This document shows, piece after piece, positions 234-5,618 of a DNA stretch of 40,495 bases. Position numbers and translations under genes: made by a program. The first letter of the stretch is position 1. Every line of letters begins with the position of its first letter. The notes beneath the pieces were generated by a model. The model had not been told where the DNA came from. It did not search any database and was given only the letters and a program-made list of their open reading frames with translations. Where the stretch lies: NCBI GenBank assembly GCA_021803345.1, contig JAJZLS010000085.1:1-40495 (forward strand), given 5' to 3'. Source of the stretch: Actinomycetes bacterium. Lineage in GTDB: Bacteria; Actinomycetota; Acidimicrobiia; Acidimicrobiales; Acidimicrobiaceae.

Positions 234-467
234 ATGACAGAAAAGGCTAGCAAATACAGTTCATGTCCAATCTGTGAATGTCAGGTCACCGACCTTCACC
301 AGTTAGCGGTGCACCTTTTCAACAAAGCCCAGGTAAGCGACGGTCAACATATCATGTGGCTGAATAGAAACCTTACAAAGTTCCAAGTTCCGGTAGAAAA
401 GCTTTACAAACTACTTGAACAATCTGGATTTGGCAAGCCCAATAACCAGGATGTGGTCACGAGATGA
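234..467 (+). CDS. Small C2H2-type zinc-finger-like protein
   Basis: A 77-residue protein with a zinc-site pattern: Cys11 and Cys14 (CPIC), His27 in LAVHLF, and His38 after a ten-residue spacer. The spacing resembles single C2H2 fingers of short prokaryotic proteins, and a further Cys16 and His22 lie nearby. There is no signal peptide or membrane segment, so it should be cytosolic. Its UGA stop overlaps the ATG of the next gene in an ATGA junction, so the two are probably translationally coupled. No function can be assigned beyond metal or nucleic-acid binding. The context suggests an accessory partner of the TenA-fold protein downstream. The zinc-site reading is fairly firm; the role is not known. 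Confidence 0.72.
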   Translation: MTEKASKYSSCPICECQVTDLHQLAVHLFNKAQVSDGQHIMWLNRNLTKFQVPVEKLYKLLEQSGFGKPNNQDVVTR

Positions 468-1183
468 ATAACGAATTTGCCCAGCGTGTTGAGTCACTCG
501 TAATTGACAAGTGGTTTTCCAACCTTCCAAAACTAATCGATGCTATGGCCAACAAACCTTCAGTGGGTGTCACCAGAGCCTTCGTTCTACAATGGACCAA
601 GTTTTCACGCCTATTTCCCAGATGGGTAGGTTCAATCATGTCCAACTGCCCAGAGTTTGAAGTACTGGCATATGAAGTAGAAAATTTGATGTCAGAGGTG
701 GTGCTGGATCCTGCCGGAGACACCAACCACTACCAGCTACTGATTCGGCTTGGAAACGGAGTGGGAATAAGCAGAGAAGAGATAGAAAATTTTCCAACTC
801 TCGAAGCAGCAACCTCTACCTTTGATTGGCTTTGGTCCAAAGCAAGAGATCCGGATTGGTTGGTGGGTTTTACTGCAGTAAATGGGCTTGAAATCCTGGG
901 AGATCGTAATCTACCGAGCAAATACCGATTGAAAGCCGGAACAGGCCTAGATCCAGATCCATATTTCAAACATCTTGGACTAAGTCAGGACGCTACACAG
1001 TTCTTTGAGGTAAGCGACAAGGCTGATGCCGGTCATGGTCACGAAACCGTAAGAATAATCGCAGATTATACCCCCGAACAGCGTCAGAACGAGATCCTTC
1101 AGATACTTGACGAGTCTATGCATAGACTGCGTTTTATGACAGACTCGATGTGGGTTCTTTCTAAGGAACTGGAAGACGGATAG
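464..1183 (+). CDS. TenA/PqqC-fold (haem-oxygenase-like) putative non-haem iron oxidase
   Basis: A 239-residue, probably all-helical protein that I place in the TenA/THI-4/PqqC superfamily, which includes haem-oxygenase-like diiron oxidases such as CADD. The ligand pattern of that group can be traced: Glu78 followed by His89 in the first metal helix, Glu143 in a mid-protein helix (GLEILGD), then a last metal helix that in the family reads HxxxDxxH. Here this helix reads S184-x3-D188-x2-H191, so the first His is replaced by Ser; His193 is close by. The protein may bind iron in an altered site or may have lost oxidase activity. It starts at the ATG overlapping the previous stop and ends 21 nt before the UGA-interrupted small gene. 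Family assignment is from motif and length; the substrate is unknown. Confidence 0.65.
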   Translation: MNNEFAQRVESLVIDKWFSNLPKLIDAMANKPSVGVTRAFVLQWTKFSRLFPRWVGSIMSNCPEFEVLAYEVENLMSEVVLDPAGDTNHYQLLIRLGNGVGISREEIENFPTLEAATSTFDWLWSKARDPDWLVGFTAVNGLEILGDRNLPSKYRLKAGTGLDPDPYFKHLGLSQDATQFFEVSDKADAGHGHETVRIIADYTPEQRQNEILQILDESMHRLRFMTDSMWVLSKELEDG

Positions 1184-1204: not shown

Positions 1205-1495
1205 ATGAGCAAAGGCGATCCATGCGATCTATGCGGTTCAACATGGGGAGATTATGACGTTAAAATCAGTGGAAATTCTTATCATTTTTGCTGAGATCTC
1301 TGAGGCCAAGCCTTCTCGAGCCTTGTAACCGCACTGGAACGACGGTTAGGGGTTGGCACTGTTGTCCGGTCGGATGACGTCAATGGAAATGAAGTCTCAG
1401 GAGTAGCGACCACGCTAAATAGTGAATGCTTTAGCTTTGTAGCATTATTCACCGACGAAGGTGAGATAGTGAGCTTAGCCTTGGAAGATAACTGA
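1205..1495 (+). CDS. Small Cys-rich zinc-ribbon-like protein with two in-frame UGA codons (candidate selenoprotein)
   Basis: The frame starts at ATG 1205, eight bases after an AAAGG ribosome site, and encodes 96 residues if two UGA codons (1292-1294 and 1301-1303) are read through. The third UGA, at 1493-1495, ends it. The N-terminal part has CDLC (Cys7, Cys10), a hydrophilic hairpin, and then FC-UGA-DL-UGA-GQAF. Both UGAs fall where a treble-clef or ribbon protein with CxxC...CCxxC would have the second zinc knuckle. Downstream the frame stays open and protein-like (helix SSLVTALERRLG, then strands), with no other stop. UGA is an ordinary stop for many genes in the window, so only local recoding or damage can explain this. 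It is the third gene of an apparent operon. The alternative is a pseudogene or sequencing error. The product might resemble archaeal Ta0938-like zinc proteins, which I could not verify. Confidence 0.55.
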
Positions 1496-1584: not shown

Positions 1585-2598
1585 TTAATCCGACAGCGCC
1601 CTTTTTCGTGACTCTTCCAAAGCAGAAATCATTTCAATATTTGCCCTACCCTGGCTTGGGCTCTCCAGCTTGAGCTGAAATCCTGCCATTGCTGCCAGCG
1701 TGGATGCGGTACTAGTCTCAAGCGCCTCCAGGTCATAGCCACCTTCAAGCATCGCCACCACGTTGGCAGTCGGCGCCAACTGCTTGATCCAGAGAGTCAG
1801 CATCCCAAAATCAGCGGAGGTGAGTCCCAACTCAGTAAGGGGATCTTGTCGATGGGCATCGAATCCGGACGATAAGAGTATCCAGGTTGGAGCGAAGCTC
1901 TCTATAACCGGAGCGGCAATTCGATCCAACCCCTCCATATATGAAGCCACAACGGTGTTGGCATGAAACGGGAGATTGAGTGTGTAACCTTTACCCTCCC
2001 CTTTGCCTACCTCACGGGCCCTCCCTGTCCCTGGATAGAGAGGATATTGATGGGTAGAAACATAGAGAACTTTGGAACTTTCAAAAAATATCTCCTGAGT
2101 CCCATTCCCATGATGGGCATCGAAATCGAATACAAGCACCCGCTCACCACGGGAGACTAGTTCAGCAGACAGCACCGCAATATTGTTGAGCAAGCAGAAC
2201 CCCATGGCTCTGTCACTTACCGCATGATGACCCGGAGGTCGCACTGCAAGAAAGGCCGCGTCTGCCTCGCCGGCGTAAATCCTTCTGGCTGCATCCAGAC
2301 CAGCTCCAGCTGCTAAAAGGGCAGCCTCCCAAGAGGCCTCGGTTGCCATAGTATCCGGGTCGAGCATCCCTCCGCCCATAAGGCAAAATCGCTTCAGGGC
2401 TTCTATATATGAGGGCTGATGGACTCTACTAAGCTCTTCGACAGTCGCCTGAGTAGGTTGGAATACTTGTACAAGTTCTTTTATCCCACTCAACTCGATT
2501 CCCTTAAACACCGCTTGAAGCCGCTGAGGTGAATCAGGGTGTACGGTTCCGGAATCGTGCTCTACATACTTAGGGTGTGTCCCAAATAAAATAACCAT
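1585..2598 (-). CDS. Histone-deacetylase-family (AcuC/class II-like) deacetylase
   Basis: A 337-residue zinc-dependent deacetylase of the HDAC superfamily; bacterial members remove acetyl groups from protein lysines, polyamines or small amides. The signatures are intact: RPPGHH with the His124-His125 pair, DFDAHHGNG with predicted zinc ligands Asp160 and His162, GFDAH with zinc ligand Asp247, and LEGGYD with catalytic Tyr288. The length is typical and a single domain fills the chain. The gene is divergent from the acetyltransferase gene at 2641, with only 42 nt between start codons. The pairing of a deacetylase with an acetyltransferase may be functional, but that is inferred from position only. 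Family assignment is secure; the substrate is not known. Confidence 0.93.
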   Translation of the reverse strand: MVILFGTHPKYVEHDSGTVHPDSPQRLQAVFKGIELSGIKELVQVFQPTQATVEELSRVHQPSYIEALKRFCLMGGGMLDPDTMATEASWEAALLAAGAGLDAARRIYAGEADAAFLAVRPPGHHAVSDRAMGFCLLNNIAVLSAELVSRGERVLVFDFDAHHGNGTQEIFFESSKVLYVSTHQYPLYPGTGRAREVGKGEGKGYTLNLPFHANTVVASYMEGLDRIAAPVIESFAPTWILLSSGFDAHRQDPLTELGLTSADFGMLTLWIKQLAPTANVVAMLEGGYDLEALETSTASTLAAMAGFQLKLESPSQGRANIEMISALEESRKRALSD

Positions 2599-3527: not shown

Positions 3528-5618
3528 ATGCCAAGATCAAATAAACATCCGAGTCACCGAAGGTCAAGGCGTATACCACCCTGGCGAGGTCCAATGTTTT
3601 TGGCATTTCTTGTGATCTTGGTTGGTGTTTTCCTGCTTCGGCAATATCCCTCCACCAGGTCCAATGTTTCTCACCAAAAAACAACTACAACTACAGTAAA
3701 GCCGTCTTCAAATTCCGGAACTACGGATTCAAGTAGCCCGCTATCAATAACCTCCGGTCCCACATGGGTCAGCATGGGAACCCCGGAGACGATAACACTA
3801 AATTCCGCTGCACTTAAGAATCAAAGCGGGATAGAGGTTTCGCTTGAGGTATTCCCGAAGATTGAATCTAGATCCCAATTTCAATTTATTTCCAAATATG
3901 GAGTCAAATCACTTCCGATAGCATCTTCGCCACCAGTTGATGTAACCCGTCTATCCAAATATTCAACTGGAAACCCCCAGCTTTCGTTTGAAATCTCCGA
4001 AACTTCGCAACCCACTACCAGCAAGCAGTCGCCCAACACCAGCTTTATACAGATCCCCTATTGTTCGCCCAACTGTGCCGGGGTTTATCCCCTGCTGGCA
4101 GTGTTTGTGAAAAACTCTCAGGTCATACATACTGCTCTTACGAGGATCGCCCTTGAATCAAGCACTAAGGTGACAAAGCCGCTCAATTTCGCGATGGTGG
4201 TGCAAGCCCCTTTTAGCGGCAATACAAACAATGACCTAAAATCGCTTGCACTTATAACAGCTGATCTGCAGGCCAATCCTTTAGCAAATGTTACTGTCGA
4301 TATCCCTGGAATCGTACTTGAGGAAGCACTAAGTTCTTCCGTGCCCACCAATAAGTCCACAATATCTCAGCTCGTGTCCTGGGCCGCACTGCCAAACCAT
4401 CAAATAATCACTTCAGGATTTGTACCCATAAACTTTCCCCGGCTGGTTTCATCCGGACTCTCAGGCCTTATCAAACAGGATCTATCGGAAGGAACCAAGT
4501 TCTCAAATCAGTTACTCAGAAAAAATACCACCACACCTGGCCCTATAGTAATCAACGGTGGTCTTAGTAATACATCTGCGTCACTGCTAGCGAATAACGG
4601 TGTATCAAAAATACTGCTGGGACAGAAATATTTTGCACCATTTAACCAAAAATTCTCACTATCACAGCCTTTTCTCATTGAAGACAATCAGAATTCTGCG
4701 CTGGAAGTTCTCTCCTCGGACAGTGAGCTGCGCAGTGATCTATCCGCTGGGGCCATCCCCTACACTTCCGCCAATCAGATCTCTACCGATTTGGCGCAGA
4801 TCTACTTTGATCAACCCAATGACATCTCTGAGCGAGTGGTTAGCACGTTGTTTCGAGTTAGCTCCCCTCAGCAAGCTTCCAACCTCAATGCAGCACTCAA
4901 TGACATAACTAGTTCCCCATTTGTTCACACCACTGATCTGCAAAATGCTTTTTCCCTGATTCCAACCAGCTCGCTGCAGATCGGGAAATTAGGTAATCCG
5001 GCAGCATCAAGAGCTATAGATGTCAGTCGGTTCAAGTCGATCTCATCTGACGTCTCTGCTCTTGATTCCTCGCTAGGCAAATCGACTCTTCTATCTCAGG
5101 CTCAGACCTCGCTCATGGCCTCGCTTGCTTCATCTATCTCAAGTTCAAAATCTCAGCAGTTCCTGAACTCAAGTCAGGCCACCATCTCGCAAATTTCAAG
5201 CATGCTGTCACTGGCAGCTAACAAATCCTTCACAGTGACTTCAAGAAACGTAAAATTGCCAATTGCTATTTCCTCCCAGCTTAAGGTTCCATTCAAAGGG
5301 GTATTGGTTATAAAATCTGATAGGTTGTCATTTCCAAACGGAAACACCGTACCTGTGGTGGTCAGTGGCCCAAATACTACGTTGTCAATTCCTATCTATG
5401 CAGAGACCTTAGGGATTTACCTAATTTCCGCAAAGTTGTTTACCACAAACGGCAAATTGGTAGTTGCCCATACCTCTATAGAAATTCGCTCAACGGCCTT
5501 TTCACTTGTGAGCATCATCCTCACCCTTGGGGCATTCTTAATTCTCGCACTATGGTGGATCCAATCATTTAGAAAGGGCCACAGAAGAAATAGGCGGCTA
5601 GTGAGTGAAAGTAAGTGA
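3528..5618 (+). CDS. DUF6049-type large secreted/membrane-anchored protein upstream of murJ
   Basis: A 696-residue protein with a basic N-terminus, a membrane segment at about residues 23-40 (AFLVILVGVFLL), a long Ser/Thr/Asn-rich extracellular region, and a C-terminal membrane segment at about 665-683 followed by a basic Arg/Lys tail. This architecture and the position directly before murJ match the actinobacterial DUF6049 family (Rv3909 in M. tuberculosis), thought to work in envelope assembly. The stop codon overlaps the GTG start of murJ by four bases, implying coupled translation. The 116-nt gap before it contains two GTGTTGAAA repeats that could be part of a promoter. No enzymatic motif was found. 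The family call rests on topology and synteny more than on sequence motifs. Confidence 0.75.
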   Translation: MPRSNKHPSHRRSRRIPPWRGPMFLAFLVILVGVFLLRQYPSTRSNVSHQKTTTTTVKPSSNSGTTDSSSPLSITSGPTWVSMGTPETITLNSAALKNQSGIEVSLEVFPKIESRSQFQFISKYGVKSLPIASSPPVDVTRLSKYSTGNPQLSFEISETSQPTTSKQSPNTSFIQIPYCSPNCAGVYPLLAVFVKNSQVIHTALTRIALESSTKVTKPLNFAMVVQAPFSGNTNNDLKSLALITADLQANPLANVTVDIPGIVLEEALSSSVPTNKSTISQLVSWAALPNHQIITSGFVPINFPRLVSSGLSGLIKQDLSEGTKFSNQLLRKNTTTPGPIVINGGLSNTSASLLANNGVSKILLGQKYFAPFNQKFSLSQPFLIEDNQNSALEVLSSDSELRSDLSAGAIPYTSANQISTDLAQIYFDQPNDISERVVSTLFRVSSPQQASNLNAALNDITSSPFVHTTDLQNAFSLIPTSSLQIGKLGNPAASRAIDVSRFKSISSDVSALDSSLGKSTLLSQAQTSLMASLASSISSSKSQQFLNSSQATISQISSMLSLAANKSFTVTSRNVKLPIAISSQLKVPFKGVLVIKSDRLSFPNGNTVPVVVSGPNTTLSIPIYAETLGIYLISAKLFTTNGKLVVAHTSIEIRSTAFSLVSIILTLGAFLILALWWIQSFRKGHRRNRRLVSESK

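Follow-up and report, generated by a model that had tools for sequence, protein, structure and literature searches.

How can a short bacterial gene that is broken twice by UGA codons still encode a protein? The question is raised by one frame in the 40,495-nucleotide stretch of DNA analysed here (the window; contig JAJZLS010000085.1 of an Actinomycetes bacterium), for which a first-pass annotation had described an opening at ATG 1205 and a motif FC-UGA-DL-UGA-GQAF, and had proposed that the two UGAs take the place of expected cysteines, that random decay would hardly strike just these positions and that both codons might be decoded as selenocysteine (Sec). Frame and motif proved to be as described: the frame runs over 97 codons to a TGA at 1493-1495 (terminal UGA, codon 97), and the only stops before it are the TGAs at codons 30 and 33, giving the translation MSKGDPCDLCGSTWGDYDVKISGNSYHFC-U-DL-U-GQAFSS.... 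With the UGAs translated as Cys, this frame matched the Ta0938 family (PF11494; E 3.9e-15, 56.5 bits against a gathering cut-off of 27) over residues 6-90, so that the domain spans both UGAs (Table 1). An NCBIfam search of the same protein returned no selenoprotein match; its one hit, a weak one to a sigma-factor model, fell below the cut-off. For this one gene, and before conservation is counted, the chance that both stops would land on Cys-equivalent codons (five of the 96) is approximately 0.002. A gene finder that treats UGA as a stop would be expected to truncate the protein after residue 29. Just downstream, on the opposite strand, lies a gene for a histone-deacetylase-domain protein (PF00850, E 9e-87; window 1585-2598, minus strand).

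Table 1. Features of the locus, with positions counted from the first nucleotide of the window.
Feature	Position	Strand	Basis or description
Small zf-C2H2_9 zinc-finger protein gene	234..467	+	PF16293, E 6.5e-16
Heme-oxygenase-like (HDO/CADD-type) metalloenzyme gene	464..1183	+	PF14518, E 2.9e-14
Predicted selenoprotein gene, Ta0938/PF11494 family	1205..1495	+	96 residues; C7, C10, C29, U30, U33
Codon 29, third site	1289..1291	+	TGC (Cys) in the window; TGA in 4 of 8 loci
UGA codon 30, putatively read as Sec	1292..1294	+	TGA in every bacterial locus (8 of 8); all 3 readable archaeal homologues have Cys
UGA codon 33, putatively read as Sec	1301..1303	+	Same counts of TGA and Cys as for codon 30
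Helix between the UGAs and the hairpin	1308..1359	+	RNAalifold consensus, pairs 1308-1318 with 1349-1359
Candidate SECIS hairpin	1360..1379	+	Loop GGUC at 1368-1371; 93.8% of cells paired

To place the frame among its relatives, we used homologues from three samples. Among 61 genomes (the window's own and others of its genus, family and order), the gene was found in four, all of them in the window's genus (4 of 10 genus genomes, the window's included), and in a class-wide sample it was present in 2 of 395, namely the window's genome and one from another family (G094). A pattern-based scan of species genomes produced 54 stretches, from which 10 loci were confirmed, six actinobacterial and four archaeal; three of the six actinobacterial loci, on contigs of equal length, were genus loci already found, leaving eight distinct bacterial loci (the window, G000; G004, L010/L037; G002, L011/L041; G009, L012/L040; G094, L035; G435, L036; G436, L038; and G437, L039). 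All eight have TGA at codons 30 and 33. Codon 29 is also TGA in G004, G002, G094 and G435 (UUxxU) and is TGC in the window, G009, G436 and G437 (CUxxU), and at codons 7 and 10 every locus has TGC or TGT, never TGA. No further stop lies within the frame in any bacterial locus, with the contig of L012/L040 ending ahead of its stop. The three readable archaeal relatives (L042, L043 and L044; the fourth, L045, was left out, its sequence being masked beyond FFC) read FFCC-x-x-C, with Cys at all three sites, as does TA0938 of Thermoplasma (PDB 2FQH), with FFCCDIC. The UGAs are thus found where homologues carry cysteine, as had been anticipated.

Two in-frame stops within one short gene might also mark a decaying pseudogene or errors of sequencing. 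However, the stop positions are identical in eight separate assemblies, which makes sequencing error unlikely, there are no other stops, and the amino-acid sequence downstream of the UGAs is evidently under protein constraint: over codons 34-70, pN/pS was below 1 in all 28 pairs (0.28-0.84, ratios that are rough because synonymous sites are far diverged, with pS of 0.29-0.83). Decay or error thus has a negligible probability, in keeping with the earlier argument against random decay.

Decoding as an amino acid calls for a reader of UGA, and we examined the genomes for one. The genetic code has not been reassigned, as the first-pass annotation had argued, given that UGA ends ordinary genes of the window's genome. 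This genome encodes tRNA-Sec (69.2 bits; ARAGORN anticodon TCA) and SelD (377.1 bits against a cut-off of 125), the latter itself with one in-frame TGA, the U in HGAGUACK (UxxK motif). Only ARAGORN calls of tRNA-Sec are counted here, because tRNA-Gly also passes the Rfam cut-off, which alone is unspecific. Among the eight genomes with the UGA gene, tRNA-Sec (TCA) was detected in seven (not found in the draft G436), SelD over the cut-off in seven (none in the draft G009) and SelB in six (G004, G009, G094, G435, G436 and G437; not found in the draft assemblies G000 and G002). An in-frame TGA is present in SelD of six of the nine genomes with an over-cut-off match (G000, G001, G002, G003, G004 and G435) and absent from it in G094, G436 and G437, so that Sec and non-Sec forms of SelD occur in one group.

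The Sec machinery for which the first-pass annotation had advised a search was therefore recovered in part: selC (tRNA-Sec) and selD are present in the window's own genome, whereas neither selA nor selB turned up in its assembly (94.9% complete, 90 contigs), with no match for selA and none over the cut-off for selB, the best selB matches resembling other translation GTPases in score and frame length. Within the genus, selB was over the cut-off in 7 of 10 genomes, with selA adjoining it on those seven contigs. By profile, selA scored over the cut-off (403-410 bits) in all three copies scanned of the seven (G001, G009 and G004); of the five selB copies scanned, those of G001, G009 and G435 were over the cut-off and those of G436 and G437 just under it (236.8 and 233.7 bits against 242.25), with the SelB winged-helix domain present in both. 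In G009, selB, selA, a putative NAD synthetase gene and tRNA-Sec follow one another in that order on one 18.4-kb contig. In the window's genome, tRNA-Sec and an NAD-synthetase-like gene share a contig (C52) that ends 0.3 kb past the NAD-synthetase-like gene and, by comparison with the G009 gene order, stops before the expected place of selA-selB. Moreover, a Mrp-type gene two genes from selA (87% identity between G001 and G009) has only a 40% match in the window's genome, so that the entire selA-selB segment seems to be absent from the assembly. Because this neighbour of the selA-selB operon is missing as well, the absence of selA and selB likely reflects an assembly or binning gap. Separately, G435 (Centralia_MAG_137) was seen to have two over-cut-off tRNA-Sec genes with anticodon TCA (L098, G435:C125:2208-2303, and L107, G435:C66:13136-13227), by duplication or in a mixed bin; in the same genome, SelB (G435:C60) and the Sec gene (L036, JAJPHE010000010.1) are each on a contig of 73904 b, which suggests a single contig.

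Cysteine at the UGA sites of homologues could also be taken to mean that a suppressor tRNA or near-cognate read-through decodes the UGAs as cysteine or some different amino acid; for other bacteria, an opal suppressor tRNA that inserts Cys has been proposed. We regard this as very improbable, given that no tRNA with anticodon UCA besides tRNA-Sec was present among the 41 tRNAs read in the 94.9% complete assembly (Trp had CCA and Cys GCA only), that tRNA-Sec accompanies the gene in seven of the eight UGA genomes but has no over-cut-off match in the three archaeal genomes carrying Cys forms, that the Cys codons 7 and 10 of the same gene are never TGA in the eight loci, and that a structured hairpin lies downstream of the UGAs. 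The selenocysteine reading, by comparison, is supported by the Cys homologues, the conservation of UGA in all bacterial loci, tRNA-Sec and SelD. From these, together with the frame, the operon and the constraint on the hairpin, we infer actual Sec insertion, and decoding of both codons 30 and 33 as Sec is, on sequence evidence, very likely.

How would the ribosome be instructed to insert Sec at these codons? The 114-nt region from codon 29 onwards aligned without gaps across the eight sequences, and its consensus fold consists of a helix (columns 20-30 with 61-71) followed directly by a hairpin (columns 72-79 with 84-91). Over the whole structure, 89.5% of cells are paired, compared with 27.6-58.6% when the structure is slid by up to three columns, a comparison that a structure derived from the same alignment tends to win. 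The covariation score was 0.197 (shuffled mean 0.140), which none of 500 shuffles attained, and the observed value for further pair types was reached by 1 of 500; three pairs are changed on both sides, as many as in 88 of 500 shuffles, and a slide of +2 columns has four. Covariation support for the structure was thus modest. In the helix, 86.4% of cells are paired and two pairs are changed on both sides; the window breaks several of its consensus pairs, and its own fold uses shifted pairs. In the hairpin, the GGUC loop and the six innermost pairs are present in all eight loci, with the outer two pairs broken in two loci each.

Codon choice gave a further view of the hairpin. Among 26 codons whose amino acid is invariant, three are invariant as codons, Asp18 GAC, Arg55 CGG and Ser56 TCG, and the last two (8 of 8 loci) form the loop and the closing pair, despite the six codons available for each of Arg and Ser. 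Measured against synonymous draws, the hairpin z-score was negative in all eight sequences (mean -2.09; between 6 and 43 of the 400 draws scored as low, with the hairpin alone unremarkable in G004, at 43 of 400), and codons 34-60 folded better than most draws in all eight (mean z -2.65; 0 to 18 of 400 as low). Control stretches had mean z-scores of -0.69 downstream and -0.36 upstream, single stretches reaching -1.77. A six-pair stem with a GGUC loop would arise by synonymous draw with a probability of 0.004 to 0.11 per sequence. In dinucleotide shuffles of 92 nt from four sequences, z was -0.16 for the window, whose own region did not stand out, -2.97 for G004, -2.66 for G002 and -1.65 for G009. 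Synonymous constraint on the hairpin is thus indicated by the sequences themselves, and we interpret this distal GGUC hairpin as probably the SECIS of the Sec gene. Neither the hairpin, nor the operon described below, nor the third site at codon 29 had figured in the first-pass annotation.

The distance is unusual for a SECIS: the GGUC loop lies 64 nt past UGA 33, outside the bacterial SECIS model of 16-37 nt from UGA to apical loop, a model that, by the same account, a subset of SECIS elements does not fit (PMC13188914). The gene could therefore be a genuine selenoprotein gene whose SECIS is a structure nearer the UGAs, and in some sequences the apical region of the helix at 1308-1359 does fall within 16-37 nt; but its inner apical loop region is poorly conserved, whereas the distal hairpin is almost fully paired across the loci and has two of the three codon-invariant codons. 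GGUC also occurs in the apical region of the E. coli fdhF SECIS (ggttgcaggtctgcacc; PMC3834832), from which the present hairpin differs in that no bulged base was seen, the distance from the UGA is far longer and a helix intervenes. In addition, a hairpin with an RGUY loop follows the SelD UGA by 32-33 nt in five of the six Sec-SelD genes (all except that of G002; with the closing base counted, the loops are GGUC in G004, G003 and G435, AGUC in G000 and GGUU in G001), although several of these genes have rival hairpins nearer the UGA than the RGUY hairpin. Taking these points together, we consider a nearer SECIS unlikely.

With the distal hairpin as the SECIS, it would recruit the SelB-Sec-tRNA complex; the first helix, once formed, may place it close to the ribosome's mRNA entry during the decoding of codon 29 or 30. 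Sec would then be inserted at codons 30 and 33, and in four relatives also at codon 29, and the ribosome would continue past the hairpin until the UGA of codon 97 ends translation.

What might such a protein do? In all eight bacterial loci, the Sec gene follows genes for a zf-C2H2_9-like protein and an HDO protein, in that order. In the window, the stop of the zf-C2H2_9 gene overlaps the HDO start (ATGA), and a zf-C2H2_9-like frame precedes the HDO gene in the seven other bacterial loci. The three archaeal Ta0938-family loci read also have a zinc-finger/HDO gene as the neighbour; there the two are fused in one protein (Pfam was run on the fusion of L042 only), followed directly by the Cys form, whereas in bacteria zinc finger and HDO are split and the third protein has two or three of its cysteines replaced by Sec. 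In the archaeal loci we also noted, upstream of the zinc-finger/HDO gene (L044:3523-3873 and 3921-4145; L042 around 3900-4086), a 75-residue protein without a Pfam match, which by eye has a counterpart in L042. Metallosphaera has a Rieske protein there, which may be an electron partner of the HDO enzyme.

The HDO protein itself is a confident member of its family (Haem_oxygenas_2, PF14518; 53.7 bits against a gathering cut-off of 28.9). Its AlphaFold model (pLDDT 91.4) was matched by Foldseek to SSO2700 (PDB 4LQX; E about 5e-9), CADD (4-aminobenzoate synthase; CtCADD was among the matches), PqqC, BesC and UndA, with SSO2700 and CADD alike in both fold and sequence; they resemble the HDO partner only, not the Sec protein. 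The 18 positions that do not vary across 10 HDO sequences (seven bacterial, with G094 left out, and three archaeal) include E78, H89, E143, D188 and H191, and these five align with acidic or His positions of CADD that we take to be its metal ligands. The CADD His four residues ahead of the conserved Asp is, in contrast, Ser184 in the window's protein, and the CADD model of NCBIfam (TIGR04305) scored 44.6 bits on the HDO partner, below its cut-off of 200. For SSO2700, a search of the open-access literature returned no mention, and for Ta0938 a single paper that names it.

The Sec protein, modelled with Cys in place of Sec (pLDDT 90.3), has strands at residues 17-21 and 24-28 and a helix at 31-48. 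The predicted product would begin with a CxxC knuckle (C7 and C10) and a beta hairpin, place U30 and U33, beside C/U29, at the N-terminus of the helix that follows, and end in a cystatin-like sheet. A CxxC ahead of a hairpin, with two ligands at the helix start, presumably represents a treble-clef layout. TA0938 of Thermoplasma acidophilum (2FQH) is alike over the whole domain, with CxxC then CCxxC at equal spacing, and was matched in a sequence-profile comparison at 2.8e-11; it did not appear in the 50 structural matches listed for the Sec-protein model in either comparison. The likeliest role is a soft-metal or redox site: two cysteine thiolates and two selenolates would form a treble-clef-like centre, in which zinc could be bound through Sec, and the protein would act as metal chaperone or electron partner for the heme-oxygenase-like iron enzyme of the operon. 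To our knowledge, a treble-clef-type metal site with selenolate ligands is not known from any characterised zinc protein. This predicted link to metal and to the HDO enzyme is drawn from the operon, the fold and Cys chemistry, and we rate a metal site or redox partner for that enzyme at about an even chance.

Alternatively, the Sec cluster might be not a metal site but a redox site, a selenenylsulfide or diselenide that reduces the HDO partner or is reduced by it. UxxC and CxxU motifs are redox-related in many selenoproteins (PMC13188914), and U29-U30 and U33 could conceivably form diselenides; the invariant C7 and C10 and the knuckle-hairpin-helix layout, on the other hand, suggest a four-ligand metal site, and the Sec protein has a weak, under-cut-off similarity to TRASH and YHS domains. 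We find a redox role in place of a metal site less likely than not. Considered as a whole, a selenoprotein gene with a GGUC hairpin that would recruit SelB and a Ta0938-family product that may serve the HDO enzyme is, with high probability, the best explanation of the locus.

Among small metal-binding proteins, FmdB is a CxxC zinc-ribbon protein that offers a point of comparison. The 2026 catalogue of prokaryotic selenoproteins, in the part considered here, has an FmdB-family regulatory protein and the metal-binding protein NF041115 as predicted selenoproteins with UxxU, the spacing of the present Sec protein, and these, with the YHS domain, are its nearest entries (PMC13188914). FmdB and NF041115 are nevertheless different families, set apart by catalogue name and domain, and that part of the source gives neither of them an adjacent pair of Sec (PMC13188914). 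In the same portion, PF11494/Ta0938 is not among the 119 prokaryotic selenoprotein families and subfamilies, the vast majority of which have a single Sec (PMC13188914). Our searches of the open-access literature found no paper treating selenoproteins and selenocysteine together with Acidimicrobi, and none that combines at least three of the topics selenoprotein, selenocysteine, treble clef, TRASH domain and zinc ribbon. Selenoproteins as such are known; a triple-Sec metal-knuckle protein and a hairpin so far from its UGAs are undescribed as far as this literature search extends.

A more far-reaching reading combines three elements: one distal GGUC hairpin, which the helix before it keeps near the ribosome, directing two or three Sec within five codons, as a SECIS class outside 16-37 nt; a treble-clef centre with two or three selenolate ligands; and an HDO-serving operon common to these bacteria and archaea, of possibly archaeal origin, in which Sec later took the place of Cys. 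We put this combination forward tentatively, at somewhat less than an even chance. Together, up to three Sec within five residues at an apparent metal knuckle and Cys-only archaeal relatives for comparison mean that the role of Sec as a ligand in a zinc-type site becomes testable, as does the bacterial decoding of clustered UGAs with one hairpin.
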